A DNA stretch of 44,416 bases from a virus. Under the pieces are notes generated by a model. It made no database searches and was not told where the DNA came from. It saw only the letters and a list, made by a program, of their open reading frames with translations. A program made the position numbers and the translations under genes. The stretch is taken from positions 1 to 44,416 of IMG/VR virus record IMGVR_UViG_3300046542_000329; one strand, given 5' to 3'. Of the stretch, positions 5,858 through 43,576 are shown piece by piece. Each line of letters opens with the position of its first letter. The stretch's first letter is position 1.

Positions 5858-6936
5858 TCAGGCTGCTGGCGCGGAATCGTGAAACACGTCCATCTGCGCC
5901 GCGCCGTCGAGCCAGGCCGCCGCGATGCGGCGTTCAGCCATGGCGGCGTACTCCGGATTGAGTTCGCAGAGGATAGATTTGCGGCCCTCCTGCATTGCGA
6001 CCACCGCCGTGGTACCGGCACCGCCGAACGGGTCAAGCACGATTCCACCGCGCGGGACCCCCGGCCAGAATGCAAGGCCGGATCAGTTCAGGCGGGAAGG
6101 TGGCGAAGTGAGCGCCTTTGAAGCCTTGGGTCGGCACCGTCCAGACGCTGCGCTTATTTCGGGTGTCGAGCGGGTAGGCGCTTTCTTCCCGATCCGGGCG
6201 GTGCGTACCGAGTGAGTGCCCAGGTATTGCCTGCTCTCGCTTGGAACCTTCGGCGCTGACTCCGGACCGCTTTCATGGGGCCGTTTGCCTTGCCCGGTAC
6301 GCGGTCGCTACCGAGTTGTTGCTCGAGATCCTGAGCGAGTCTGACAACCGAGCTCAGTGCTACCGGCTCACGTATCGCATCCTGGTCGTAAAAATAGCGC
6401 GGGCACTTGCTCAACAGAAACACGTACTCATGGGATTTAGTGCAACGATCCCTTGTGGATTCAGGCATTGGATTCGGCTTATGCCAGATGATGTCCTGAC
6501 GCAGATACCAGCCGTCATCCTGCAAGGCGAAGGCCAGCCGCCACGGGATGCCCATCAGATCCTTTTGTTTCAACCCAGTCGGTGGCGTCCGGCGCTTCCC
6601 ACGCAGCACAGCTCCGCGCGTGGATTGGGAAACCATGTCGTGCTTTCCTGCCGATCCGCCCGGGGCATATCCGCCGGCGATTGAGGCGTACGTGTCGCCC
6701 ATGTTCACCCAGAGAGTGCCGTCGTCACGCAGTACCCGCCGCACCTCCCGGAACACTTGCACCAGGCGAGAAACGAATTCGCCCGGCGTTTCCTCCAGCC
6801 CGATCTGGTCGGGCATGCCGTAATCCCTCAGCCCAAAGTAGGGCGGGCTGGTCACGCAGCACTGCATTGACTGATCCGGCAAGGTCCGCATCATGTCGAT
6901 GCAGTCGCCAACCAGTATCTGGTGGGAGGGAGTCAT
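5858..6936 (-). pseudogene. Class beta DNA methyltransferase (N4-C or N6-A), frameshifted
   Basis: The first part (ATG 6936, ending at a TAA at 6154) opens HQILVGDCIDMMRTLPD and has the catalytic motif IV TSPPYFGLRDYG near residue 30, with later motifs to about residue 190. The SAM-binding motif I LDPFGGAGTTAVVA appears only in another frame near 6000-6040, after KRSVWTVPTQGF and HFATFPPELIRP. Motif IV before motif I is the class beta order. The two halves join by a shift between about 6285 and 6160, where both frames are open. No restriction partner lies next to it. As read, SAM binding is lost; a sequencing error cannot be excluded. Confidence 0.85.
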
Positions 6937-7036
6937 AGTTGATTTCCAGTTAGGCGCCGCCCTCCGTGACCGGTGGTGGCAATTTGATTTGGGTTGGGGT
7001 ATTGATGCCGACAGCTTTTGGCGGAGGAAGAATCTA

Positions 7037-7510
7037 GTGGCTCAAGAAATGGCAATGATTACTGTGGGGATAATATCTGCTGTCTCCGTGATGGCTGGCT
7101 CATCACTGACCTGGCTACTCAACAACATCACAACAACTGAGACAGCGAAACGAGCTGAACAGGCGGCGATCCGCCATCTAGTAGAGGGCCATTACCTATC
7201 AGTGATGACTGCACTTGAAAATTTTTTAAGAGCAGAGGAATACGGCCGGGAGATCCATAGTGAACTTTCAGCAATGAATGCGGCGATAGATCTATTCGCC
7301 AATGCAAAAGTCAAAGAAAGGTTCACTTCTGCTACGAAATTGATCAGCGATTTTCAGGACAAAGCTGAGGATTTTTCCCCTAGGCCTCAATCTCTTTTCC
7401 ATGCGGGAGAAAGTCTTGGAAAGGAGTGGAAGGCGATCCTAATAGAAAAAGAAAATCTAGCAAATGCGATGTGTGACCATATGCGGGAGCTGCAGAGTTT
7501 TGTTCGGTAA
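7037..7510 (+). CDS. Membrane-anchored helical protein, 157 aa
   Basis: The preferred start is GTG 7037, with GGAGGAAG upstream; the open frame from 6893 runs through the methyltransferase start region and is not credible there. The product has one N-terminal transmembrane helix (MITVGIISAVSVMAGSSLTW) and a soluble, mostly helical domain of about 120 residues. It lies in the cargo block, opposite to both methyltransferase genes and less GC-rich than the virion genes. Function unknown. Confidence 0.6.
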   Translation: MAQEMAMITVGIISAVSVMAGSSLTWLLNNITTTETAKRAEQAAIRHLVEGHYLSVMTALENFLRAEEYGREIHSELSAMNAAIDLFANAKVKERFTSATKLISDFQDKAEDFSPRPQSLFHAGESLGKEWKAILIEKENLANAMCDHMRELQSFVR

Positions 7511-7551
7511 ATTTAGGTCCAGGCGACAAATCTAGTCGGGTTAGGAGCTGG

Positions 7552-9357
7552 TTATTCATGGAATCCCTTCTGAGAAACGCTCAGGCCGACCGCAACCGGG
7601 CGAACCCAGATCGGCATGTTGCTGAGCATGAATGTTTCGCCGGCAGCAGCCAGCAATAGGGTGGTGCCCATCACATCGGCGATTGCTTCGGCTGCGTGCG
7701 GCGGGACTGCGTTTCCGATGCGTTCGCGCCATGCCTGATCGCTTAGGCCGTCCAGCTCGAATTGTTCTTCCGGTTCGACCAGGCTTTGAATGGCAGCCAG
7801 CTCCAAAGTGGTGAAGGGGCGGTGCCAGGTGCCGTCGAGGCTTTCGATGACGCAGGTCAGTCGGTCGTTGGGTTCCGGCATGCGTGGATCAGCGACAGAC
7901 CAGCGACCGTTATCCTGGCGGGCGCTTGCTGAGACTGCGCCGCACTGATCGTTCCAGGCGACAACTCCATAGTGTCCACCCGTGAGGTAGGCGTCACCTT
8001 TCACGCGTTTCATGCCCGGGCGGGGGTCAGCGATGGACAGCGCGCCGCTAGCAACTTGCAGTGACCCTGTCACGGTCCCGGCTGTTTTGTCCCATGGACA
8101 AACGCCCAGCTTTCGAGTGCTCGCCCCTGGGTGCCAGTTGTGGTATCTGGGGTCTTGCACGGCGAAGGAGCTCTGGCCGGTGGTGCTGGCGGCGATAACC
8201 GTTCCGCTGGCAGCGTCCCATGGCGTAACCATGTACTTGCCGAAGGAGCTGCGCGGTTGGCGCGGGTCAGCAACGCTGAACGTCCCTTGCCCGGGCGACT
8301 TCACACCGATGACCGCGCCGCTCGTTTCGCCCCACTGGCGCACGCCGTACTGTTGGTATTGCAGGGCGCCAGCTTTGGCGCGCGGATCCGCAACCGAAAA
8401 CGCACCATTGGTTGGGCTGCTGCGACCGGCGACCGTGCCGGCGGTGTCCTGCCAGTCATGCACACCCAGGTATCCGGCACGGCACTCAGGCAGGATCACC
8501 AGATCACGCAGGTAACCGTCCTCAACCGCCAGGTCATTCAGGCTGCGCCAGTCCTTGCCGGCGGTGACCAGGGCGAGGCGAACCCATGTTTTCCATTGCA
8601 GCGCCGGTACACGGTGCATTGGGCCCGCGGACTCGATGTCGCCAGCGAGCGGCATCCGGCCGAGGATTGAGCCGACAGACTTGAGCGTTTTCTTTTCCGG
8701 CTCGTACAGGAACGGCGGTACCTTCTCAATATGGCGAGCCACCAGCAAGAAGCGTTTGCGGCTCTGGGCCAGGCCGCCAATAACGCCGCAGTCGTGGGTG
8801 GTTTCCGCGACGGCATAGCCGTAGTGCTCCAGTAGCTTGTTGATCTGGTCCAACAGGTGCCGGCCACGAGTGGCGAGGCGCGGCACGTTCTCGAACACCA
8901 GCAGCGGGACAGGGTCATCTTTCCATGCTTCCCCAAACAACCAGATGCAGCGCAACGTCAGTTCGTTTAGGGCCTGGTACTTGGGAGTGAGGCTCAACTT
9001 TTCAGACAACAATCCCGATGCGCCTTTGCAGGGACTGGAAATGAACACGGCGTCAGGCCTTTGGTAGTTGGCGGCGCGGCGGATATCTTCCACCGTGGCT
9101 TCACGCCAACCCGGCGGCGGTTCTTTACCGTGGAAACGGATGTATTGATCGCGAGTGAAAAGGTCCAGCAAGGTGCCTTTTACACCGCTCAACCGTTCGA
9201 AGTCCGCCAATCCGGCCGGGTCGATATCGACGCCGCCGATACATTGCCATTCGGCTTGAACGTTACCGACGATGGGCTTTGACCGATTAAAACCTTTGGC
9301 GCCGCCGCCGAGGCCGCAGCAAAAATGAAAGTGTTTGAGTACGCGCTTGAGCATCAT
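7552..9357 (-). CDS. DNA C5-cytosine methyltransferase with repeat-built target domain
   Basis: The 601-aa protein has all key C5-methyltransferase motifs: FCCGLGGGAKGF (motif I, 12-23), SSPC with catalytic Cys110 (motif IV), ENV at 156-158 (VI), QSRKR at 198-202 (VIII) and GNAVPP at 548-553 (X). Between VIII and X, residues 297-492 hold five copies of a roughly 40-residue unit, W-[D/N/G]-x2-[A/S/C]-G-[T/A]-V ... D-P-R. That is where the target recognition domain normally sits, so the repeats probably form or extend it. The start at 9357 has AAGGAC upstream, and a terminator at 9377-9401 separates it from the recombination genes. Likely role: modifying phage or host DNA against restriction. 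Confidence 0.9.
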   Translation of the reverse strand: MMLKRVLKHFHFCCGLGGGAKGFNRSKPIVGNVQAEWQCIGGVDIDPAGLADFERLSGVKGTLLDLFTRDQYIRFHGKEPPPGWREATVEDIRRAANYQRPDAVFISSPCKGASGLLSEKLSLTPKYQALNELTLRCIWLFGEAWKDDPVPLLVFENVPRLATRGRHLLDQINKLLEHYGYAVAETTHDCGVIGGLAQSRKRFLLVARHIEKVPPFLYEPEKKTLKSVGSILGRMPLAGDIESAGPMHRVPALQWKTWVRLALVTAGKDWRSLNDLAVEDGYLRDLVILPECRAGYLGVHDWQDTAGTVAGRSSPTNGAFSVADPRAKAGALQYQQYGVRQWGETSGAVIGVKSPGQGTFSVADPRQPRSSFGKYMVTPWDAASGTVIAASTTGQSSFAVQDPRYHNWHPGASTRKLGVCPWDKTAGTVTGSLQVASGALSIADPRPGMKRVKGDAYLTGGHYGVVAWNDQCGAVSASARQDNGRWSVADPRMPEPNDRLTCVIESLDGTWHRPFTTLELAAIQSLVEPEEQFELDGLSDQAWRERIGNAVPPHAAEAIADVMGTTLLLAAAGETFMLSNMPIWVRPVAVGLSVSQKGFHE

Positions 9358-9376
9358 GCGGCGGAGTCCTTTGGAC

Positions 9377-9401
9377 AAAAGAAAGGCGCCCATAGGCGCC
9401 C
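9377..9401 (-). terminator. Intrinsic terminator after the recombination operon
   Basis: On the minus strand GGCGCC (9400-9395) pairs with GGCGCC (9390-9385) and is followed by TTTCTTTT (9384-9377). It lies between the SMC-like ATPase stop and the methyltransferase start, so leftward transcription must pass it to reach int. Confidence 0.7.
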
Positions 9402-9422
9402 GTGGTATTTCGGTGAAACTGG

Positions 9423-11171
9423 TCAGCTGGCTTGTTGCAGCGGTTGATCGCCGGCCGCAACACCGCCCTCAATCCAAACCGCACTAATCTCTGGCGACTT
9501 GGATGTATCGGGCTTCGTCTTCAGCGTCCCACACACAATGGCGCTATCGACGGCGCCGGTCTTCGCCAACGCCACCAACATGCCCAGCAGCTCCCCGCGC
9601 CCAGGTAGATCGAGCACGTCGTATCGATCCAGGATCAGAAACCGCAGGCCAGAATGTTCGGCAATGACCAGAGCCAATAGGGCGTCGACACGCCAGCGCT
9701 CCGATTCCGACAACAGTGCGTACAACCGGCCGCCGGCGCTGATGCTCATGTCCGCGCCGATCTCTACCGGCCGCCATCGCGCCAGAGCGGAGGCCTTCGC
9801 CAAGCTGTCGTTGATCGGTTGAAGCGCACCGGCCAGGATCTCGCTGGGTATCCCATCGGGCGCCAGCAGGTCAGCGATCAACGTCCAGGCTTTCACGTCG
9901 GCGTGATGCGCTGCCGCTGTGTCGTTGGTTTTCTGGGCATTGGCAACCAGGTCCTGGCGGTCCTTCATGGCGTTGACCTTTGCACGTAGGTTGTCCGCTT
10001 TAAGCCGGAGATCCGTCAGAGCTTCTTCCGTCTTTCCGATTTGCTCGGCGGAGATTACTTCAGGCGCTGACTTTTGCAGTTCCGCCAACTCGGCGGCGGC
10101 ATTTTCGGCTGTGGTCATGGCGGCTTGATCATTGTGTTGTGTGCGCTTCAGCAGCTCGATGGCGCTTTTGGCTTTGCTCAGTTCCAATGCCAAGTCGGTG
10201 ACCTGTTTGGTGTCGCCGACGAGACCTTGATACAGCTCGACGGTCTTGCCCACGATTTTCAGTTTGACGCCACAGCTTGGGCAGTCGCAGCCAGCGACGT
10301 TATAGGTCGCCAATTCCAGTTGGGTTGTGAGCTGCTGATGCTTCTCTTCCCAGCCGGCCAGATCCTTGCTGGTGCTGTCGAGCTTCGTCTTGGCGCGCGA
10401 GAGTAGGGCGGCGGCTTCGGTCAGTGTTTCGATCCGGGCAGCATGGTCGGCAGTGGCTTTTTGCTTTTCCTCCAGGGCGCCGAGGTACTTCACGCCTTTT
10501 TCGATTTCGACGGTGATGCCGCCATGCTCAGCGATGACCTTGTTTATCTCCGCGCTGGTGATCACCGGACCGACAGGGACCTCTACGGTCCAATCCTCGG
10601 ATTTTTCACTCCCGTACTGCTCGCCAGTGAGTGCTTTCCAGGCCCCGCGGCTTTCGCTGGCGTAATCCTTGGCCTGTTGCTGCGCCGCCGGAAATCCGCC
10701 GATCAGCATCGGCTTGATCTTCTCCACCTTTGCTGGCTCGGCCCCTTTGGACAGGAGCTTGTCGGCGACCACTTGAGGCTTGCTGCTCGATTTAGTCAGG
10801 GCGAATAGCGCTTTCCTGCGATCACCGTCCGGCAGGTTGGCAAACAGGGAGGGCGTCAGCACGTAGGGTAAAAACTCGTCGCCAGCGGCGGGTGAATGGT
10901 CGCCCTTGCCGTCTGGCAGGGTGTAGCTGCTGGTGACCCCATCATGACTGAGGATGATCTGGGCTTTCTTGCTGCCCTCGGTGACCAGTTGTTTGTAGTG
11001 CTTTTTCAGGGCAACCCGTGCCGAACCGCCCAGCGCGAGGTTGATGGCTTCTTGCAGGCTGGATTTTCCGGCGCCGTTCGCGCCGCAAACCAGGGTGATG
11101 GGTGCCGATAGGTCCAGGTTGCAGGACTTCAGCCCCTGGAAATTCTCAACGTAAAGGTGGGTCAGGCGCAT
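9423..11171 (-). CDS. SMC/RecF/SbcC-like AAA ATPase
   Basis: The 582-aa protein starts MRLTHLYVENFQGLKS and has Walker A GANGAGKS at 30-37, the N-terminal head of an SMC/Rad50-type ATPase. Long charged helices follow on both sides of a CDCPSCGVKL segment (Cys295, 297, 300) near the middle, which resembles a Rad50 zinc hook. A hydrophobic FLILDRYDVLD near residue 530 is the Walker B. The family acts in DNA end processing. Here it sits downstream of RecT and a nuclease, so it probably belongs to phage recombination. GGAG precedes its ATG. Confidence 0.88.
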   Translation of the reverse strand: MRLTHLYVENFQGLKSCNLDLSAPITLVCGANGAGKSSLQEAINLALGGSARVALKKHYKQLVTEGSKKAQIILSHDGVTSSYTLPDGKGDHSPAAGDEFLPYVLTPSLFANLPDGDRRKALFALTKSSSKPQVVADKLLSKGAEPAKVEKIKPMLIGGFPAAQQQAKDYASESRGAWKALTGEQYGSEKSEDWTVEVPVGPVITSAEINKVIAEHGGITVEIEKGVKYLGALEEKQKATADHAARIETLTEAAALLSRAKTKLDSTSKDLAGWEEKHQQLTTQLELATYNVAGCDCPSCGVKLKIVGKTVELYQGLVGDTKQVTDLALELSKAKSAIELLKRTQHNDQAAMTTAENAAAELAELQKSAPEVISAEQIGKTEEALTDLRLKADNLRAKVNAMKDRQDLVANAQKTNDTAAAHHADVKAWTLIADLLAPDGIPSEILAGALQPINDSLAKASALARWRPVEIGADMSISAGGRLYALLSESERWRVDALLALVIAEHSGLRFLILDRYDVLDLPGRGELLGMLVALAKTGAVDSAIVCGTLKTKPDTSKSPEISAVWIEGGVAAGDQPLQQAS

Positions 11172-11177
11172 GGGACG

Positions 11178-11918
11178 TCACTCCAGGTCAGCGTCAAGGT
11201 CGGTCAGGCTCATGACCACGGTGTAGATGTTCTCCAGCGGGTCGGAGGCTTCGGTTTCAAGCTCGATAACGCCTTCTTCGAGCATCAACAGAATCAGGCG
11301 CGTCGCGGTGTCGCTGTCCACGGCGAACCGCGATTGCAGCTTGGCCACGTCAATGCAGGTGAAGTGGAGAATGACGGAGCGGCAGATATCGCCGAGTGTC
11401 AGCCCGGCGAATTTCTCGACGCCGAGGGCCAGGAATTCCCCTTCAATCGGTTCTTCGGACGTACCGCCCCAATCGGCGTTTTCCATGCTGCTGTCGCCGC
11501 TGTTGAGGTCCATCACATTTTGATCCGGGTCGGCCTTCGTTGCCTTGAGGTCCCCCATGTGTTCGTCGGGGTTGGCGATAACCAGTAGGCAGTCTTTATC
11601 GACGGAATCCTGCAATTCATGGCGGCCCTCAGAGGAAGGGTTGATTACGAAGACGGCCTTGATTTTGCTCTTGGTGGTGACTTGTTCCAGCTTGCCCACC
11701 ACCGTGACCCGCTCTGCGCTGGCGATCATGTGGGTGGCGAGCGTCACCGCAGCGTGGACGCGGGAGGAAAGGCGCTCGATGATATCCTCCTGTTTGCTCT
11801 CGGTCAGCTTCTGCCAGCAATCAGGCATGATGCGGATTTCCTGGACCAGGCCGGCCAGCAGCTTTTCACCGATGGAGTTGGCGGTCATTTGAAGGAATTC
11901 GGGGTTTGCTTCGTTCAT
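11178..11918 (-). CDS. Phage protein with C-terminal winged helix resembling FtsK gamma
   Basis: The 246-aa acidic protein has a central region (RVTVVGKLEQVTTKSKIKAVFVI...) and a low-complexity acidic stretch. The C-terminal part, CIDVAKLQSRFAVDSDTATR then LLMLEEGVIE, resembles the winged helix of FtsK gamma domains. It lies between the ATPase and RecT genes, so a role with the recombination proteins is likely. The exact function is unknown and the FtsK link is weak. Confidence 0.6.
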   Translation of the reverse strand: MNEANPEFLQMTANSIGEKLLAGLVQEIRIMPDCWQKLTESKQEDIIERLSSRVHAAVTLATHMIASAERVTVVGKLEQVTTKSKIKAVFVINPSSEGRHELQDSVDKDCLLVIANPDEHMGDLKATKADPDQNVMDLNSGDSSMENADWGGTSEEPIEGEFLALGVEKFAGLTLGDICRSVILHFTCIDVAKLQSRFAVDSDTATRLILLMLEEGVIELETEASDPLENIYTVVMSLTDLDADLE

Positions 11919-11930
11919 AACTGAGCCGTC

Positions 11931-12131
11931 CTATTCGTTGGCGATGCGCTCAAGGATGTTGTGTTGGGTTTCGCTGAGGAGCGTGTGGGCGCCGTAGCGT
12001 TGGAAGTTGGCCCGCAGGTCGCTGGTGAACGTTTCTTCCCACTCCGCGCGGGCGTGCAGTTCAGCGGTGGATAGCAACAGATCGAATTCTTCGACGTGGT
12101 CGAAGAGCTCATCTATGGATTGGCTGGTCAT
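11931..12131 (-). CDS. Small acidic phage protein, 66 aa
   Basis: A 66-residue helical, acidic product (MTSQSIDELFDHVEEFDLL...). It starts six bases after the RecT-like gene ends, in the same operon. No family recognised. Confidence 0.6.
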   Translation of the reverse strand: MTSQSIDELFDHVEEFDLLLSTAELHARAEWEETFTSDLRANFQRYGAHTLLSETQHNILERIANE

Positions 12132-12136
12132 GGCGG

Positions 12137-13123
12137 CTACTCGAATTGCAGGCCGGTGGTGTCGGCAGCTGTTGCGGTTTCTTCGGTTTGGGTTGCGCTA
12201 TCGGCTTGTGCCGTTGCGGCTTCGGCCGTTTCTGTTGCAGTCGCTACCAGCTCGGCAACGCTGTCGGCGTCATTTACATCTCCGTCGCCGTCGCCGTCGC
12301 CGTCGCCGTCGTCGTCGTCATTGACGATTGCCGGTGCCTCGGGCTCTTTGTTACGAAGATCGTTAACGTCCACGGTGAAGTTGCCGGCGCCGTCTGGTGA
12401 GGCATCGATAAAGTCTTGAACTTCTTCTTGGGTTTGCAGGCCCATCAGCAATTCAGGGGCGTACAGCCGACCGAAAAGACTCGCCGCCCGGTAACGGAGC
12501 ATGATTTCTGGCATGGTTTGCCACTTGCTGCCGTTCTTCGTCAGCCAGCCTTCATCGATAGCCATTTGAATAGAGACTGTCGGGCCGTCGAGACGATCGC
12601 CGGTTTCCTTCTCTATCACCCAGGCTCGACAGGTGCGGTGCTGGATCTTGGTTTCGCGCTGCTCTTCGGTTTTTTTGTCGTTCTTCCAGACCACGGCTTT
12701 GTACTTTACGACTTCGTCCCTGCCGGGCTCGCTGAGGTCGAAACGCAGCGGGCTAAAGCGGCCGCAACTGTTGATTGCCGCGATGATGAACTGGCTTGAC
12801 CAGCTCGGGCGGCCCTCAATGACATAGAGATTCTGCATCACCATTAGAGGGTCAGCGCCCATGCGCATAGCCATGTTCAGCGCGACAACGCAATTTGGAA
12901 GGCCGGCGGGGTTTGGCGTGTGGCCGGTGACTCTCCCGTAAGCCTTTACTTCGGTGAATGCACGGTACTGCGCCGGCACCAGGGTAGAAGAGCACAGCGC
13001 TTTGGCAACCCGTTGCAGTTGGTCGAAGCCAGAGCCAGTGAGCAATGACATAGGAGCATCGTTTTTGGGCGCGGCGACAGCGCTGGTCTGCATCTGCGCC
13101 AAGGTCGTTGTTTGCTGTGTCAT
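12137..13123 (-). CDS. RecT-family single-strand annealing protein
   Basis: The 328-aa protein has the RecT core: LPNCVVALNMAMRMGADPLMV, then MQNLYVIEGRPSWSSQFIIAAIN, then MPEIMLRYRAASLFGRLYAPELL. Such proteins anneal complementary single strands during phage recombination and pair with an exonuclease, here the PD-(D/E)XK gene just upstream. The C-terminal tail after residue 255 is disordered and very acidic, with a GDGDGDGD run encoded by a hexanucleotide repeat. The ATG overlaps the preceding stop (ATGA). Confidence 0.88.
   Translation of the reverse strand: MTQQTTTLAQMQTSAVAAPKNDAPMSLLTGSGFDQLQRVAKALCSSTLVPAQYRAFTEVKAYGRVTGHTPNPAGLPNCVVALNMAMRMGADPLMVMQNLYVIEGRPSWSSQFIIAAINSCGRFSPLRFDLSEPGRDEVVKYKAVVWKNDKKTEEQRETKIQHRTCRAWVIEKETGDRLDGPTVSIQMAIDEGWLTKNGSKWQTMPEIMLRYRAASLFGRLYAPELLMGLQTQEEVQDFIDASPDGAGNFTVDVNDLRNKEPEAPAIVNDDDDGDGDGDGDGDVNDADSVAELVATATETAEAATAQADSATQTEETATAADTTGLQFE
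12283..12321. repeat. CCGTCG hexanucleotide microsatellite in the recT tail
   Basis: The plus strand shows four consecutive CCGTCG units followed by several CGT/GTC triplets. On the coding strand this gives alternating Gly-Asp and then an Asp run. Such a tract can vary in length by slippage without a frameshift, because the units are multiples of three. Confidence 0.8.
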
Positions 13124-13350
13124 GAGATCACCTTGCGAGCGGCCAGGTAATCGGCCTCGGTCGCGATGGATACGAGGCGTTTGTCCTGGAGGTCTTTCGG
13201 GGTTTCGTGGAGCTTCACTTGGGTCATGTAGAAGGTTTCCCGGTCCCAGACCCGGTGGGCGTTGATGACTGGTTTCCGTCTACCGGTGGGGTCGGTCAGG
13301 CGCACGTAAAGGTCTTGGCCCTTCATCTTTTCGTTGATGGCTGTTTTCAT
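13120..13350 (-). CDS. Small recombination-operon protein, 76 aa
   Basis: From ATG 13350 (MKTAINEKMKGQDLYVRL) the product has a short beta-rich look (INAHRVWDRETFYMTQVKLHE) and a helical end. Upstream in-frame starts lie inside the nuclease gene and are rejected. It sits between the nuclease and RecT and overlaps recT by four bases. Function unknown. Confidence 0.65.
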   Translation of the reverse strand: MKTAINEKMKGQDLYVRLTDPTGRRKPVINAHRVWDRETFYMTQVKLHETPKDLQDKRLVSIATEADYLAARKVIS

Positions 13351-13355
13351 GGCGC

Positions 13356-14162
13356 TTACTCGTGGTAGGGGCATAAGGACCAGCGCGGGCAGTACTTCGC
13401 GCTGCACAGAAAGCTCTGTGGGTTGGGAGGGAAAAGACCGGTACGGAACATGTCGGCGCCGATCTGGATCAGGCCGGGGAATTCCTCCGTGCCGACCATC
13501 ATTTGCTTGGCGCCCTGGATAACGCCGACGCCGGTCTCTGGCTTGCCCCGTGTCTTGAGCCCGATGATGTGGGCCGGGGCGGTGCAGGGCTCGCCGGTGG
13601 TGTGTTCCTCAAGGATTTCGTAGGTGCCGATCTGCGCGGCGTGGCCTTTGGTTTTCGCCACGCCATCAGCAACAGCGGCGCCGCCGGTCTTCACGTCGGC
13701 GATGCCCTTGCCGTCTCCGGTCCTGCAGATCCGTGCCCGATCGAGTTGGCCGGTTAGGCGGACGATTACCCCGGCGCCGCAATCGATATCCAGCGGCGTG
13801 GCTGTGCGTTCAACAGCCGCGAATTCATAGCGGGGGCTGATGTCATTGCAGTAGCGGGTATGCAAGGGCAGGGCGATGCGCTCGGCCTCTTGGAGGGTCA
13901 GCTTGTCGGCCTTCCAATCGACTTCCCATTCAGGATTGCGCAGCGTGTGGATGAGCAGCTCAGCGGTGTCAAAGGCAGTGAGGTTGTTGCCATTCATGCG
14001 GGAGACATCGAAAGCGGCGGTGCTGGCGTGGATCGACGTTCCCAGGTGCGCCCGGCCGCTACTCGGCGACCGGTGCCCGAGAATGTGTATCCACTCCCAC
14101 TTGAAAGCGCAGTCGAACAGCGAGCCCCACGACGAGGCACGGACAGTGATTATTCTGTGCAT
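13356..14162 (-). CDS. PD-(D/E)XK exonuclease with a Cas4-like iron-sulfur Cys set
   Basis: The 268-aa nuclease has His45 (GTSIHAS), Glu118, Asp141 (TGQLDRA), then IADVKTG with Asp156 and Lys158: the PD-(D/E)XK core of the Cas4/RecB class. Cys18 near the N-terminus and Cys253, Cys258 and Cys264 at the C-terminus match the split four-cysteine layout that holds a 4Fe-4S cluster in Cas4 and AddB nucleases. Next to recT it is the expected 5'-3' exonuclease that makes single strands for annealing. It overlaps the RNase H-like gene's end by 13 bases. Confidence 0.85.
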   Translation of the reverse strand: MHRIITVRASSWGSLFDCAFKWEWIHILGHRSPSSGRAHLGTSIHASTAAFDVSRMNGNNLTAFDTAELLIHTLRNPEWEVDWKADKLTLQEAERIALPLHTRYCNDISPRYEFAAVERTATPLDIDCGAGVIVRLTGQLDRARICRTGDGKGIADVKTGGAAVADGVAKTKGHAAQIGTYEILEEHTTGEPCTAPAHIIGLKTRGKPETGVGVIQGAKQMMVGTEEFPGLIQIGADMFRTGLFPPNPQSFLCSAKYCPRWSLCPYHE

Positions 14163-15908: not shown

Positions 15909-16192
15909 ATCGCTTCTCCGGTTGTTTCCCAATGCACCCGGTCGCCCAGGTGCATCAGTAAAAATTCCGTATTGCTGGCCGCTGTTACACGCCACCTGCG
16001 GACTGGGCGATTGCTTTCTCGGGAGCCCTTGGGGCTCGACAGTCAGCCGCGTTCTTCACCGCTGACACTCTTTGATCAAGGACCCTCTACGCTGCGGGTC
16101 ACGGGGTGAGGCATCCCCTGTACCGGATTCGGGCTCCGGCTCGCTGCCCTTGTTGCTGACCAGCTGGCTGGCTGCGCTTCATAACTGAAGTT
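15909..16192 (-). ncRNA. Long structured leader of the pL transcript (candidate)
   Basis: About 280 nt lie between the predicted pL start and the first gene with no supported ORF. They contain two neighbouring hairpins, GTCAGC...GCTGAC (16042-16066) and GAGCCC-3 nt-GGGCTC (16023-16037), and a third, TGCACC...GGTGCA, near 15932-15954. A structured untranslated leader here could act as an antitermination or regulatory RNA. This is inferred from structure and position only. Confidence 0.35.
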
Positions 16193-16240
16193 ATGGGAAA
16201 TAATAACTTGAGTTTTGTTTCTGTCAATAACTCAAGTTAT
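16181..16240. promoter_or_regulatory. OL operator cluster (three repressor sites)
   Basis: Three 14-bp palindromic sites fit ATAACTNNAGTTAT: 16181-16194 (perfect arms), 16203-16216 (one mismatch) and 16227-16240 (perfect arms). Start-to-start spacing is 22 then 24 bp. They cover the pL promoter. The same sequence and spacing recur at OR (17383-17442). Confidence 0.85.
16200..16227 (-). promoter_or_regulatory. pL, early leftward promoter
   Basis: On the minus strand a perfect -35 TTGACA (16227-16222) and -10 TATTAT (16205-16200) are separated by 16 bp. The middle operator lies in the spacer. It faces the recombination and early genes. Confidence 0.8.
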
Positions 16241-16681: not shown

Positions 16682-17371
16682 TTATCGGTGTTTGCGTTTC
16701 GACTCTGTGACCACGCCGATGATCTGGCATTTTTCGTCGATGGGGATCATGCGGTAGGCTGGATTTAATGGCTTTAGATAGCGTTGCCCAGCATCCGAGA
16801 CGAGCATCTTGAAGGTGGCTTCACTGCTACTATCGCTCAGTAATCGGGCGACCACCAAGTCGCCTGGTCTCGCCTCCAAGCCTGTGTCTACTAAGATCAT
16901 CACGCCTTCCGGGATACTTTCTCCCGACAGCGATGTCATGGAATCGCCTTTCACTTCCAGCCAAAAAGACTGGCCCTTGCCTTTGTAGTCCGTCAGTTCA
17001 AAACGGTCTGCTGCGCCAGGCTCGAAAGGTTCGACGGCTTCGCTCCAGTTGCCAGCGGCAACCCAGCTCAACACGGGGTAGCGATATAGCCGCTGTGGCT
17101 GCTCCAACGGCGCAACATTGGTCGATTGTTTACCTTCCAGCAGGGCAAGGTTTTCCTCGGCAGCAGCCCCCGTTTCCAACCACTCCGCAGATATGCCAAG
17201 CCCACGGGCGATCGAGACCAGTTTTTTGCTGGTCCTGCTCCGCCCGCTTTCCAGGTGCGCAATGGTCACTTGGGTGACGCCCGCTTTTTCCGCGAGGAGT
17301 CCCTGGCTGAAACCGCGCTTTTCTCTGGCAAAGGCGAGGCGGTCTTTGAGTTCTGCGAGTTCGATAGTCAT
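16682..17371 (-). CDS. cI: CI-like repressor (XRE HTH plus S24 peptidase)
   Basis: The 229-aa repressor has an N-terminal helix-turn-helix (GFSQGLLAEKAGVTQVTIAHLE, 20-41) and a C-terminal S24 domain. Self-cleavage residues are visible: Ala106-Gly107 in SWVAAGNW, Ser144 in KGDSMTS and Lys188 in ATFKML. RecA-activated cleavage should induce the prophage. It should bind the six ATAACTNNAGTTAT-type operators at pL and pR. There is no clear ribosome site before ATG 17371, and a possible pRM would start transcription at or next to the ATG, so a leaderless message as in lambda is likely. Confidence 0.95.
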   Translation of the reverse strand: MTIELAELKDRLAFAREKRGFSQGLLAEKAGVTQVTIAHLESGRSRTSKKLVSIARGLGISAEWLETGAAAEENLALLEGKQSTNVAPLEQPQRLYRYPVLSWVAAGNWSEAVEPFEPGAADRFELTDYKGKGQSFWLEVKGDSMTSLSGESIPEGVMILVDTGLEARPGDLVVARLLSDSSSEATFKMLVSDAGQRYLKPLNPAYRMIPIDEKCQIIGVVTESKRKHR

Positions 17372-17382
17372 GCGCTGAGGTT

Positions 17383-17442
17383 AAAACCTTTGTTATTGCC
17401 CTTCAAATAACATGCGTTTGCCATTTTCATAACCTGAGTTAT
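17383..17442. promoter_or_regulatory. OR operator cluster (three repressor sites)
   Basis: Sites lie at 17429-17442 (ATAACCTGAGTTAT), 17407-17420 (ATAACATGCGTTTG, weak) and 17383-17396 (AAAACCTTTGTTAT). Spacing from the cro side is 22 then 24 bp, identical to OL counted from its early-gene side. They sit between cI and cro and overlap pR. Confidence 0.8.
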
Positions 17443-37021: not shown

Positions 37022-38246
37022 CTATGGATTGACTCCCGAGGGCTTGAAGGTCAAGCGCCTGGCAGACGTGCTCGCGGATGCCGGTACCGCTCTTGAGCAG
37101 ATCGAGGACCCGGTCACCGGCGAACGACTGCAAGAGGACTTTTCTGCCGCCGACCCGGCCATGCAAGTGGTCAAGATTCCGCTGGAGGCGGTGGGTGACG
37201 TCTGGGCGTTGTTGCACAACGTTTTCAGCCAGTTCGACCCCGATGCGGCGACCGGCGCGGCGCTATCTGGATTGGTTCGCCTGAACGGTATCGAGCGGGC
37301 GGGGGGTACACATTCTATTGTTCCGCTTCAGCTCGAAGGCGTGGCGAATACCATTATTCGTCAGGGGCAGCGAGTAAGCGACATCCAGCGGAAAGTCGCC
37401 TGGGTCACCCAGGCGGATGTCACCTTAGATGGTTCGGGCAAGGCGACTGTTCTGGGGCGTACCGAGGAAAAAGGGGCTTTCACCGCTACCCCTGGGCAGC
37501 TCAACGTCATTCTGACCCCAGTGGTTGGTTGGAACAGCGTCACCAACGCCACGGCGGCGGTACCGGGTACCGCGGAGGAAAAAGACCGATTGTTGCGCCA
37601 ACGCCGAGACCAATCGACCATGGCCCCGGCCAGTTCGCCCGTGGAAGCGATCTACGCCAATCTGCGCAACGTGCCAGGCGTTGAATTCGTCCGGGTCTTG
37701 ATCAACAACACGTTGCAGACAGACAGCCGAGGTATACCGCCTAAGGGCATCGCTGCAGTTGTGGTCGGCGGCCAGGATCAAGACGTCGCTAAAGTACTGC
37801 TGGAGCGCTCGCCGGCGCTGACCGAATGGTACGGAAACACCCTGTTCGTGGTGACAGACAACCTCGGCGATACCTACCCCATCCTGTGGGTGACACCTAC
37901 CGAGGTGCCGATCCATGTTGAGGTGGATATCGAGTCGCTGGGTGACGGCCAACTGACGGACGACTACGAGGCTCGAATTGCCGATGCCGTCGTGATCTAC
38001 ACGCGTTTCGGAGCCCCTGGTCTGGGTATTCCTCCCGCATCAGGTTACGACCAGGACGGCATTGTTCCGGGCGAAAGCGTTGTCGCGCCGCGCCTGTACA
38101 CGCCCATCAACAGCGTGCCCGGACATGCCCTGCGCGCCATACGCATCGGAACCAGTGCCAGCCCCTCCGGCAATGCGGACATTCCAATCAGCTGGGACGC
38201 TTGGGCGTCCTTCGACGCCTCGCGAATCAAGGTCAACCTGCTATGA
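37014..38246 (+). CDS. Baseplate wedge protein J-like
   Basis: The 410-aa protein has ATGAALSGLVRLNGIERAGG, QGQRVSDIQRKVAWVTQADV, PGTAEEKDRLLRQRRDQST and NVPGVEFVRVLINNT, the baseplate J/gp47 pattern. GGAGG lies six bases before ATG 37014; the open frame from 36906 runs inside the gp25-like gene. It links wedge to fibres. Confidence 0.88.
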   Translation: MADYGLTPEGLKVKRLADVLADAGTALEQIEDPVTGERLQEDFSAADPAMQVVKIPLEAVGDVWALLHNVFSQFDPDAATGAALSGLVRLNGIERAGGTHSIVPLQLEGVANTIIRQGQRVSDIQRKVAWVTQADVTLDGSGKATVLGRTEEKGAFTATPGQLNVILTPVVGWNSVTNATAAVPGTAEEKDRLLRQRRDQSTMAPASSPVEAIYANLRNVPGVEFVRVLINNTLQTDSRGIPPKGIAAVVVGGQDQDVAKVLLERSPALTEWYGNTLFVVTDNLGDTYPILWVTPTEVPIHVEVDIESLGDGQLTDDYEARIADAVVIYTRFGAPGLGIPPASGYDQDGIVPGESVVAPRLYTPINSVPGHALRAIRIGTSASPSGNADIPISWDAWASFDASRIKVNLL

Positions 38247-40198: not shown

Positions 40199-40897
40199 CT
40201 ACAGGTCCTTTCTGATGAGGGTCTTTCCACTGTTCTTAAAAGCTTGATAGAACTGTCGTCTCCAATTTGATCTCCAGAATTTTTCATCTGATCCGTAATG
40301 CTGAGGTTGCAGTTTCTCATTACGGTAACGGTAAGGTGATATATTGCTCGTTGCCATAGATTCAGGTTGATGCTGACAGATCAAAGGGAAAGCGCCATAC
40401 GCTTTGAAATTTTTTGAGATAATCTGATCAATCGCTAGCCCAGCGAACGGTGTAAATTCCAGCAGTTTCTTACAGCCATCGTTAGATATGATGTAGGCGA
40501 AGGCGCCTTTCGTTCGATATCTTGCAATACCTCTATTCCAAGTCAGCCAAAGCTTGCCTAGTGTGGCCCCGAGATAGAAAATCTCGGGTTTTTTATGAAG
40601 GAGAAATTTGTTGATTTGAGGTATCTTTTTTGAGTGAAAGTTGTTTAGGGTTGCATCATCTTCAAGGATCAATACGTTTCTATAATTTCGCTCTAGAGCG
40701 ATTTGAGCACATTTTATGTGTGATTCGAAACATCCTTGTTCTGGGTTGGTTTCATGAGGGGCTACCAATACAAACTCAATCGATAAGCCGCAATCCTTGA
40801 ACTCTTTTAATATTAAGTCTCGGCGATCCTGTCGAGACTTAAGGCTTATACACAAAATGCCGTCGATTAATAATTGGCTCAAGTCCTTGGTTTTCAT
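40199..40897 (-). CDS. Glycosyltransferase family 25, AT-rich moron
   Basis: The 232-aa protein has ILCISLKSRQDRRDLILKEF, GCFESHIKCAQIALERNYRNVLILEDDA (EDD at 79-81) and a late FAYIISNDGCKKLLEF: the GT25 lipooligosaccharide transferase pattern. Its codons are much more AT-rich than its neighbours and it lies on the opposite strand between the fibre and endolysin genes, so it was added later. A lysogen could use it to change LPS and the phage receptor. The sugar donor and acceptor are unknown. Confidence 0.85.
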   Translation of the reverse strand: MKTKDLSQLLIDGILCISLKSRQDRRDLILKEFKDCGLSIEFVLVAPHETNPEQGCFESHIKCAQIALERNYRNVLILEDDATLNNFHSKKIPQINKFLLHKKPEIFYLGATLGKLWLTWNRGIARYRTKGAFAYIISNDGCKKLLEFTPFAGLAIDQIISKNFKAYGAFPLICQHQPESMATSNISPYRYRNEKLQPQHYGSDEKFWRSNWRRQFYQAFKNSGKTLIRKDL

Positions 40898-41023: not shown

Positions 41024-41557
41024 ATGCCTATCACTACAGCGCAGTTGCTGCGCATACTTCCGAACGCCGGCGCCAAAGCCGGCGTTTTTGCGCCTGCCCT
41101 CAACACAGCCATGGGCCGGTACCAGATTGTTGGCCGCCAGCGTGTGGCTGCCTTCATCGCCCAGGTCGGCCATGAGTCAGGTCAGTTGCGGTGGGTGCGT
41201 GAGCTATGGGGCCCAACGTCCGCCCAGAGTCGTTACGAAGGCCGGGCAGATCTCGGCAATACCCTACCGGGTGATGGGTTCAGGTTTCGTGGGCGGGGTC
41301 TGATTCAAGTCACTGGCCGCGCCAACTACGCCGAGTGTGGGGAGGCCCTGGGCCTGGATCTAATCAGCCGGCCTGAGCTGCTGGAGCTGCCAGAATGGGC
41401 CGCGAAGTCGGCGGCCTGGTTCTGGTCTACTCGCGGTTTGAACACCCTGGCGGACGCCGGTGCGTTCGACAAGATCACACGCAGGATCAATGGCGGTCAG
41501 AACGGCGCAGAAGAGCGCCGAGAGCTGTATGACCGGGCGCGGGATGTGTTGGCATGA
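41024..41557 (+). CDS. GH19 endolysin
   Basis: The 177-aa lytic enzyme has AAFIAQVGHESGQLRWVRELWGPT, with catalytic Glu51 and Glu60, then RFRGRGLIQVTGRANYAECG and WAAKSAAWFWSTRGLN. This is the GH19 chitinase-like endolysin family, which cuts peptidoglycan. No signal peptide is visible, so it needs the holin. It overlaps Rz by four bases. Confidence 0.92.
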   Translation: MPITTAQLLRILPNAGAKAGVFAPALNTAMGRYQIVGRQRVAAFIAQVGHESGQLRWVRELWGPTSAQSRYEGRADLGNTLPGDGFRFRGRGLIQVTGRANYAECGEALGLDLISRPELLELPEWAAKSAAWFWSTRGLNTLADAGAFDKITRRINGGQNGAEERRELYDRARDVLA

Positions 41558-42069
41558 ACCCTGGCACGCTGAAGTTGCTGATCGTAGGCGTGGCCGTGGC
41601 GCTGATCCTGGTCATGAGGGCAACTTGGAAGGTCCAGGACTGGCGCTACGGGAAACAGCTGGCGGAGCAGGACGGCCAGCATCAGGCCAACTTGGCCGAG
41701 ATCAGTAGGGCGGCCGCCTCCCAGATCCAGACGGAACTGGACAAGCGCCTGGCGCTCGAGCAGCAACTTTCCGCCAGCGAAAAAACCCACTATAAGGAAC
41801 TGAGCAATGCCCTGCGTGATCAAAATCGTCTGCGCGATCGTCTTGCCACTGCTGATGTCCGGCTGTCAATCCTCCTTGCCGAGGATCCAGCCGGTTGCAA
41901 CGCAGTGCCTCCCGCCCCCGGCGCCGTCGGCGTGGTTCATGGAAGAGCAAGAGCCCAACTTGACCCAGCGCATGCTCAACGAATTATCGCCATCACCGAT
42001 GCCGGCGACCGGGGGTTGATCGCGCTGCGGGCGTGCCAGGCTTACGCTAAAGAAGTGGGCCGGCGATAG
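41554..42069 (+). CDS. Rz-like i-spanin
   Basis: The 171-aa protein has one N-terminal transmembrane segment (LLIVGVAVALILVMRATW) and a long coiled coil to about residue 100, as in Rz inner-membrane spanins. It pairs with the Rz1-like lipoprotein encoded inside it. It ends with an overlap of 23 bases against the convergent SRAP gene. Confidence 0.85.
   Translation: MNPGTLKLLIVGVAVALILVMRATWKVQDWRYGKQLAEQDGQHQANLAEISRAAASQIQTELDKRLALEQQLSASEKTHYKELSNALRDQNRLRDRLATADVRLSILLAEDPAGCNAVPPAPGAVGVVHGRARAQLDPAHAQRIIAITDAGDRGLIALRACQAYAKEVGRR
41807..42019 (+). CDS. Rz1-like o-spanin lipoprotein, nested in Rz
   Basis: The 70-aa ORF in a second frame inside the Rz gene starts MPCVIKIVCAIVLPLLMSGC, a signal peptide with lipobox LMSGC (Cys20). 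A proline-rich segment follows (CLPPPAPSAW). Nested Rz1 genes are standard. It should be anchored in the outer membrane and join Rz to fuse the membranes. Confidence 0.88.
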   Translation: MPCVIKIVCAIVLPLLMSGCQSSLPRIQPVATQCLPPPAPSAWFMEEQEPNLTQRMLNELSPSPMPATGG

Positions 42070-42739
42070 GTCTGATCAGCTCGGGGCCCTGGTTCCGCAC
42101 ATTGCCGACGGCCTTGTCGACCTTGAACCACTCGAAGGACTCGGCCGGCTCGCCCTGGTGCAGTACGATTTGCTCAGCCCGTTCCTTGGGCGTGGCCGGA
42201 TCCAGCCATTCCCGGGCAAGCTCAGGCGTCAGCACCACGGGCCGTCGGTCGTGGATGTCTATCATGCCGCCCTGGCTGTCGGCGGTGATGATCACAAAGC
42301 CGTCGTGCTCACCCGGCTCCCGGTCACCGGTGGGGAATTGGCCGATGGCCGCGCAGAATATCGGGGCCTGGTCTCGCCGGCGGATCAGGTAGGGCTGCTT
42401 CTTGGGACCACCCTCATCGACCCACTCAAACCAGTTGTTGATCGGGGTTATGGCGCGGTTCGGCCAGATCGGGCGGTAGAACGGGCCGTGGGCCACTTTC
42501 TCTACCCGGGCATTGATTGGCGCAGCCCGGTCTTTGGCCCAGGCCGGCCGCCAGCCCCAGGGCACCATGTCAGCGTGCAGAACGTCGTCCTCCTGATGGA
42601 AGAGGGCGAGCTGCTGCGACGGCGCTCCGTTGCACCTCCCAAGCGGCATGTCTCCGGCGGAATTGACCAAGGCGTTGGGCATGCTCAAGGCCGCCACGAA
42701 GTCGTGGATGCCGGTGTATTGCGAGAGTCGTCCGCACAT
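42047..42739 (-). CDS. SRAP protein (YedK/HMCES family)
   Basis: The 230-aa protein starts MCGRLSQYTG with the catalytic Cys2, then INARVEKV (Asn76), NNWFEWVDEG (Glu105) and IDIHDRRPVVL (His163), all SRAP active-site positions. Family members form a DNA-protein crosslink with abasic sites in single-stranded DNA. It lies 17 bases behind a coiled-coil gene whose promoter region holds a LexA box, so both are probably SOS-induced. Confidence 0.92.
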   Translation of the reverse strand: MCGRLSQYTGIHDFVAALSMPNALVNSAGDMPLGRCNGAPSQQLALFHQEDDVLHADMVPWGWRPAWAKDRAAPINARVEKVAHGPFYRPIWPNRAITPINNWFEWVDEGGPKKQPYLIRRRDQAPIFCAAIGQFPTGDREPGEHDGFVIITADSQGGMIDIHDRRPVVLTPELAREWLDPATPKERAEQIVLHQGEPAESFEWFKVDKAVGNVRNQGPELIRPIAGPLL

Positions 42740-42756
42740 GACGCCTGTTCCCGTAG

Positions 42757-43137
42757 TTACCTTGGCTGGGTGCTCGTGAGTATGCTCTCTGGAAGCCTCT
42801 CACCCTCGTGAACCTTGAGCTGCCGGTACAGCTCGGCGACCAGCTGGTTATGTGCCATTTGATCGCCGTTCGATTTATTCATCAGTTCGACATATCGAAG
42901 GTGCTCGGAATTCCACGCCCATTTCGCCTTCTCCAGCTCAGCCCGAAGCCTGGTGCACTCCTTGGCCTCGGCTGCGTGCATTTCCACCAAACCAAAAATA
43001 TCCTGGCGCGCCTTGCGTAACTGGGTGGTCAGTTCCTGCACCTCGTTCTCCAGCATTCGGCAGGATTGCCTGTACATCTCCAGAGGCGTGGGGCAGCCCA
43101 GCCAATCGCTGGTGTCTTCAATTTCAAACGGGTCCAT
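42757..43137 (-). CDS. Coiled-coil protein cotranscribed with SRAP
   Basis: The 126-aa protein has EIEDTSDWLGCPTPLEMYRQ then a long heptad coiled coil (ENEVQELTTQLRKARQDI ... LRAELEKAKWAW). ATG 43137 has AAGG eight bases upstream; ATG 43143 is too close to it. No family recognised. It is the first gene behind the LexA box at 43158-43173 and leads into the SRAP gene. Confidence 0.7.
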   Translation of the reverse strand: MDPFEIEDTSDWLGCPTPLEMYRQSCRMLENEVQELTTQLRKARQDIFGLVEMHAAEAKECTRLRAELEKAKWAWNSEHLRYVELMNKSNGDQMAHNQLVAELYRQLKVHEGERLPESILTSTQPR

Positions 43138-43157
43138 GACCATCGCCTTGCTTAATA

Positions 43158-43173
43158 CTGTTTGGATATACAG
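43158..43173. promoter_or_regulatory. LexA (SOS) box before the coiled-coil/SRAP operon
   Basis: CTGTTTGGATATACAG fits CTGT-N8-ACAG exactly and is flanked by TA on both sides. It lies 20 bases upstream of ATG 43137, where LexA would block the promoter. Consistent with SOS induction of the two genes when the prophage is induced. Confidence 0.8.
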
Positions 43174-43323
43174 TAATCGAGGCGGTAGGATTCGAGCGAT
43201 GGCGAGACGACGAGCTGTAGGATTTTGGGGGATGATCGGTCGGCAGGACGCCGAAGGTTGGATGGTTCATTTATGCTGGATCGGCATAATGGGAAAGCTT
43301 TGGTTAACGATTAAGCGCCCGGC

Positions 43324-43422: not shown

Positions 43423-43464
43423 GGAAAACCCATTGCAGCCCTCGGCCTGACTGATTTCCCCTTA

Positions 43465-43576
43465 GGACTTAAAATCCCCCGCTCGTAAGGGCGTGCCGGT
43501 TCGATTCCGGCTTCGGGCACCATCTAAAATCAAGGGTTTGCGGGCGAAAGCTAATGCAAACCCTTGTTCGTTTCTG
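43465..43576. repeat. attR: 112-bp att repeat, right copy
   Basis: It copies 29-140 with four mismatches. It holds the displaced 3' half of tRNA-Leu (43465-43522, starting at the anticodon stem, CCA end intact) and a second terminator stem (43531-43566). The tRNA 5' half is missing, so this copy is not a functional tRNA. The prophage length between copies is 43,436 bp. Confidence 0.93.
43531..43573 (+). terminator. tRNA-Leu terminator, right copy
   Basis: The same 11-bp CAAGGGTTTGC/GCAAACCCTTG stem as at the left end, with one loop change. It probably served the original host tRNA gene. Confidence 0.75.

Follow-up and report, generated by a model that had tools for sequence, protein, structure and literature searches.

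A temperate Pseudomonas phage carries a probable LexA-repressed accessory operon with an SRAP gene and a member of a new coiled-coil family

In the SRAP protein YedK, residues Cys2, Asn75, Glu105 and His160 make and stabilise a thiazolidine crosslink with the abasic site (PMC9436759). SRAP genes were noted in prophages in 2013 (PMC3765255), and A1S_2014, the SRAP of an A. baumannii prophage, was reported in 2019 to be DNA-damage-inducible (PMC7273328). Like the phage analyzed here, other temperate phages carry SRAP genes, i.e., Bacillus SPbeta (yoqW), Gifsy-2 and F116 (p67). Prophage operons under LexA control are classic, for example the dinI-antirepressor operons of the Gifsy phages (PMC3121763). 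The latter, as well as tum of phage 186, resemble the present locus in that control by host LexA is exerted outside the immunity region and a small protein is combined with a DNA-damage gene (PMC3121763).

The window analyzed here, i.e., the whole stretch of 44,416 bp, is an IMG/VR virus record of a Pseudomonas prophage integrated at a tRNA-Leu. Direct repeats of 127 nt at 14-140 and 43450-43576, which are 91% identical, bracket the prophage and end in the 3' end of a tRNA-Leu (the right copy was read by eye). The original prediction had placed a LexA-controlled SRAP operon on a prophage, and these att repeats, together with the virus record, bear out the prophage assignment. An RNA-family search yielded a weak tRNA-type match at attR as its sole match, and none at the coiled-coil/SRAP operon. 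The box, the coiled-coil gene and the SRAP gene, all on the minus strand, sit between an Rz-like spanin gene and attR, with no further minus-strand gene between attR and the operon. The features of this region are as follows:

41554-42069, plus strand: Rz-like spanin gene, given for context; convergent with the SRAP gene, with a 23-nt overlap
42047-42739, minus strand: SRAP gene, 230 aa, with Cys2, Asn76, Glu105 and His163; second gene of the operon
42757-43143, minus strand: coiled-coil protein gene, 128 aa from the ATG at 43143 or 126 aa from the likelier ATG at 43137
43146-43149, minus strand: Shine-Dalgarno-like AAGG, serving the start at 43137; conserved in relatives
43152-43157, minus strand: candidate -10 TATTAA, at 17-nt spacing from the candidate -35; the box fills the spacer
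43158-43173, minus strand: LexA box CTGTATATCCAAACAG (plus strand: CTGTTTGGATATACAG), with palindromic half sites CTGT/ACAG
43175-43180, minus strand: candidate -35 TCGATT, at positions -7 to -2 from the box; 78-100% conserved across 95 loci
43208-43213, minus strand: conserved upstream block TCGTCG, at about -40 from the box; present in 78 of 95 upstream regions
43450-43576, no strand: attR, tRNA-Leu 3' end; attL copy at 14-140

Elsewhere in the window, a glycosyltransferase family 25 gene of the LPS-modifying type (40199-40897, minus strand) lies between the tail fibre and endolysin genes and is likely a lysogenic-conversion gene. The early region (6154-14162, minus strand) encodes a putative N6/N4 DNA methylase and a C5 cytosine methylase, as well as an SMC/RecN-like ATPase, a weak RecT-like match and an exonuclease. 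This gene content indicates a phage with its own recombination and methylation set, and the exonuclease and RecT-like gene would generate single strands. None of the findings, though, points to the phage's single-stranded replication intermediates as what SRAP serves at induction, as the original prediction had tentatively proposed.

The SRAP protein matched Pfam SRAP (PF02586) with 148.5 bits against a curated cut-off of 27.1 (profile residues 1-214), and PHROG 1599 over its full length. The sequences of the YedK crystal structures (PDB 2icu, 6nua, 6kcq) matched it with an E value of about 1e-52, and 99 of the 221 residues aligned with YedK were identical. In this alignment, Cys2, Asn76, Glu105 and His163 correspond to YedK Cys2, Asn75, Glu105 and His160, thereby confirming the prediction of a phage SRAP with all active-site residues. 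These residues were kept in the relatives, with C2, N76 and E105 each present in 84/84 sequences and H163 in 82/84 (window included). By analogy with the YedK/HMCES family, of which it shares the full-length domain and all four catalytic positions, the window's SRAP would be expected to protect abasic sites. It differs from YedK and HMCES in being phage-borne, preceded by a LexA box and encoded by the second gene of an operon. The gene is under purifying selection, with dN of 0.03-0.07 vs dS of 0.2-0.7 and dN/dS ratios of about 0.05-0.15 in collinear comparisons; the comparison with locus L018, which was out of register due to a length difference, was disregarded. A gap of 17 nt, in which no terminator-like hairpin was found, separates the coiled-coil gene from the SRAP gene. 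As for the prophage SRAPs described previously, yoqW and the SRAP of pAN differ in having no LexA-type box before the gene, while A1S_2014 belongs to Acinetobacter, which is without LexA. In Gifsy-2, we observed an unannotated, apparently C-terminally altered SRAP frame (L139:280-504) linked to the known LexA-led dinI-like gene, which lies about 1.5 kb upstream on the same strand.

The perfect CTGT-N8-ACAG box that had been predicted ahead of the coiled-coil and SRAP genes was found at 43158-43173 (TACTGTATATCCAAACAGTA with its flanks, 43156-43175), 14 nt from the first ATG of the coiled-coil gene and 20 nt from the likelier start. By itself, the plain pattern is weak evidence, since it occurs twice in the 44-kb window vs 0.42 times expected; the second match, at 37842 within a late gene, is probably due to chance. 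The box, however, matched 17 of the 20 positions of the extended operator TACTGT-N8-ACAGTA, for which 100 shuffles gave an expectation of 0. It is also close to the published P. aeruginosa LexA consensus, CTG-TATAA-ATATA-CAG (PMC13114513), and shows the CTG-N10-CAG near a start codon by which Pseudomonas LexA operators are recognized.

A perfect box was present at most 900 nt upstream in 66 of 73 distinct related phage SRAP loci (71 of 73 with near variants), compared with a chance rate of 0.8% in shuffled upstream DNA. Given that these 73 loci were fetched by similarity to the window's SRAP and share ancestry, this count shows conservation and not independent events. Across 71 distinct coiled-coil loci, the distance from the box to the aligned coiled-coil start was 25-31 nt (19 nt in a single locus), the box being held at about -28 while the protein falls to approximately 40% identity; a few loci had ACCAG or ATCAG in the right half of the box. 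The same form of box was found in P. fluorescens genomes before lexA (two boxes), yebG and other genes, the yebG assignment having been made by eye from a protein, CTGTATATAAATACAG, that reads as YebG. No such box was detected near 16 SRAP-family loci in the fetched neighbourhoods of five Pseudomonas genomes, with the exception of L166, which is a copy of the cassette itself. Amongst Stutzerimonas-type phage SRAPs, one of 12 had a box, while the YedK-like SRAPs at enterobacterial prophage ends had none adjoining the gene, seven having one approximately 520 nt away. Because a perfect box is present in 66 of the 73 related phage SRAP loci, we consider it very likely that host LexA controls the two-gene coiled-coil/SRAP unit. 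The idea of a LexA-controlled phage SRAP is thus strongly supported by conservation, and is backed by the host operators of the same form, the box-free SRAPs outside the cassette and the differing operators of the phage CI repressor (see below).

A simple sigma-70 scan found no consensus promoter ahead of the operon. Comparison of 95 related loci revealed conserved promoter blocks spanning 43175-43214 of the window and, assigned solely from this conservation, a candidate promoter TCGATT-N17-TATTAA appears to overlap the LexA box. An operator inside the spacer between -35 and -10 resembles the arrangement of the E. coli recA promoter. Transcription from TCGATT-N17-TATTAA is predicted to start very near the conserved AAGG ribosome site, so a -10 within the box is also possible. 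For either placement, LexA bound at the box would obstruct RNA polymerase. A second block, CTCGCC, lies at about -26 and, together with TCGTCG, precedes the cassette in most phages; the combination of TCGTCG, CTCGCC and TCGATT with a LexA box was absent before other genes in the five host genomes. A conserved 69-aa frame (MPNSDLLPSLLFKINENQLALEAAIMELSNWVE...) is often located upstream of the cassette on the same strand, e.g., in L016, L018, L028, L040, L131 and L332, and is absent from the window.

The real start of the coiled-coil gene is probably the second ATG, at 43137, since the position of the first ATG is not a start codon in several relatives, whereas M/V-D-P is kept behind the AAGG. 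A family alignment revealed a (nearly) invariant N-terminal motif, DPxxIEDTxDWLGxPTxLE. AlphaFold2 predicted one 97-residue helix (residues 20 to 116, pLDDT mostly >90) and a loose, unstructured N-terminal tail that holds the conserved motif; given a single helix and a loose tail, a fold search was not useful. Judging from this model, the protein most likely forms a coiled-coil oligomer on which EDTxDWLG would be displayed as a docking peptide for a protein of the host or phage. The gene is under purifying selection (dN/dS ratios of 0.05-0.33 in collinear comparisons), and no Pfam, PHROG or NCBIfam family covers its product. The DNA replication initiation control protein, YabA, matched the family weakly in the coiled-coil region (NCBIfam, 15.9-20.8 bits, with 20.8 for one member, vs a cut-off of 130; Pfam, 18.2 bits vs a cut-off of 30, E 0.004; PDB profile, E 0.027). 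Kinship with YabA was rejected: the similarity is weak and one of coiled-coil composition only, unrelated coiled coils score like YabA against the family, and the conserved N-terminal motif lies outside the matched stretch.

Members of the coiled-coil family were identified in 57 of 199 Pseudomonas species. Amongst the best 30 genome loci, the motif was readable in 25, all of which (25/25) had a LexA-type box 45-56 nt before it, whereas an SRAP gene was located downstream in about eight of the 30 (about six intact, two truncated). Lysis or integrase genes were found within about 1.5 kb in 22 of these 30 loci, consistent with a family that is largely one of prophages. A downstream SRAP or SRAP remnant accompanied 31 of the 47 members in the virus collection. 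In a further three, L011 (1657-2109), L013 and L014, a short, divergent SRAP-like frame follows the coiled-coil gene; that of L011, the only one of the three to be scanned, scored 16.6 bits vs the cut-off of 27.1. Behind some coiled-coil genes, a short divergent SRAP-like frame has KLE in place of the NAR motif that holds the catalytic Asn but retains IHDR, and behind others there is a decayed SRAP with about 45% identity (divergent or decayed frames were also listed for L021, L022, L127 and L128).

The original prediction regarded the coiled-coil protein as a partner of SRAP that was not known from SRAP operons. It does indeed represent a new family that is often found beside SRAP, but the partnership held only in part: most genome-sampled coiled-coil loci are without SRAP, so a joint function is not required, and in other phages an unrelated gene replaces it before SRAP. 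An obligate pairing of the two was therefore rejected. In these other phages, the same promoter and box are followed by an unrelated gene of 241-246 aa, here called type B, and then by SRAP (L055, L057, L060, L064, L070, L072, L075, L081, L083, L085, L096, L103, L108, L110, L112, L117, L123 and L124). The type B protein starts with MNF[DEN]QAK... and has a C-terminal CxxC...CxxC pair; it had no family match, and the structure model of a 241-aa member (mean pLDDT 78.5) was without a significant match in PDB or viral structures. F116 and Presto share with the window a box-led gene before SRAP, yet differ in this first gene, which encodes a 171-aa protein behind a LexA-type box. Phage VW-6S has the box and the coiled-coil gene, with SRAP absent. 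Taken together, the exchangeable first genes and the presence or absence of SRAP define a cassette with a fixed switch and swappable genes. The constant companion of the box is the coiled-coil gene and not SRAP; judged by its sequence context, the coiled-coil family is a widespread and putatively SOS-controlled family of prophages, and a facultative partner of SRAP only.

We consider it highly probable, from the sequence comparisons above, that the locus belongs to a temperate Pseudomonas phage as an accessory operon under LexA repression. In the lysogen, host LexA bound to a box that overlaps the promoter would keep both genes silent; upon DNA damage, RecA would bring about LexA cleavage and both genes would be turned on, independently of phage CI and its operators. 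SRAP would then capture abasic sites in single-stranded DNA covalently via Cys2, exposed at its N terminus after removal of Met, and the captured sites would be shielded from strand cleavage during recovery of the lysogen or replication of the induced phage. The coiled-coil protein, likely a small oligomer, would at the same time show its EDTxDWLG peptide to a host or phage protein, acting as an SOS-timed effector in its own right, for which SRAP is a frequent but not a constant companion. A wider reading, which we put forward tentatively, is that the coiled-coil family constitutes a new class of SOS-timed phage effectors in more than one quarter of the sampled Pseudomonas species. Through its oligomer, an invariant EDTxDWLG-type peptide could possibly, though this is doubtful, be offered to the repressors of other prophages or to a host protein of replication, repair or the SOS response. 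The corresponding suggestion that SRAP accompanies the family optionally, within one and the same LexA-controlled cassette, is made with similar reserve.

As to who would benefit, SRAP and the coiled-coil protein may instead be lysogenic-conversion genes that aid the damaged host and not the phage, a serious alternative that we nevertheless do not favour. The operon lies beside the att site on the strand opposite the late genes, would be controlled by the host and not by the phage, and would add something to the host's own SRAPs, which are without a LexA box. The same facts, however, also fit a benefit to the phage, and none of the findings separates the two.

We next consider whether the coiled-coil protein could be an antirepressor under LexA control, similar to GfoA/GftA or Tum, such that the operon would induce the prophage and SRAP would be a passenger. 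This would follow the logic of the Gifsy operons, in which a small protein is encoded behind a LexA box, outside the immunity region and beside a DNA-damage gene (PMC3121763), and would fit the constant presence of the coiled-coil protein behind the box, where SRAP may or may not be found. However, the Gifsy phages and 186 have a repressor that is not cleaved and use the small protein as inducer, whereas in the window the small protein is unrelated and the repressor, judged by its sequence, looks self-cleaving:

16682-17371, minus strand: phage CI-type repressor, HTH plus S24 peptidase, with an Ala-Gly cleavage site and Ser/Lys; given for context
16181-16240, no strand: three CI-type operators, ATAACTTGAGTTAT, which differ from the LexA box; a fourth site lies at 17429-17442

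With its S24 peptidase, Ala-Gly site, Ser and Lys, this repressor should be triggered by RecA directly. Likewise, 36 of 37 cassette-bearing phage records had an S24-type repressor, in contrast to the uncleaved repressors of the Gifsy phages, and no sequence kinship of the coiled-coil protein to known antirepressors was found. An antirepressor role is thus disfavoured and appears improbable, although an effect on other prophages would be in keeping with Fels-1, which has an antirepressor even though a repressor there is cleaved (PMC3121763).

Less probable still is a role for SRAP in countering a bacterial defence, e.g., a base-excising one, or a lesion through which abasic sites arise in phage DNA, instead of a role in general damage tolerance. 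The phage carries DNA methylase genes, and the spread of SRAP among phages is otherwise unexplained, but none of the proteins had a defence-family match of note in PADLOC, and the timing set by LexA would be that of host damage and not of fresh infection. Finally, we rejected as barely credible the notion that the box is an operator of the phage repressor instead of host LexA and the operon an ordinary early or lysogeny phage gene: while the LexA box and certain phage operators have in common that they are short palindromes, the CI operators of this phage differ in sequence and are confined to 16181-16240 and 17429-17442, with none near 43158, and the box matches host LexA sites and is kept across phages whose repressor S24 domain scores vary widely.

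No published description of the LexA-box cassette or of the coiled-coil family was found in the open-licence literature. These two are new, whereas prophage SRAPs, including one damage-inducible case, were already known. With the LexA-repressed operon, a mobile element would bring SOS control to a protein that captures abasic sites, while the chromosomal-type copies of the hosts are without a LexA box, and the question of why temperate phages carry SRAP thereby becomes directly testable. The analysis also exposes a widespread, unnamed prophage family in which the one constant is the LexA box and the best-conserved stretch of the protein resembles a docking peptide.
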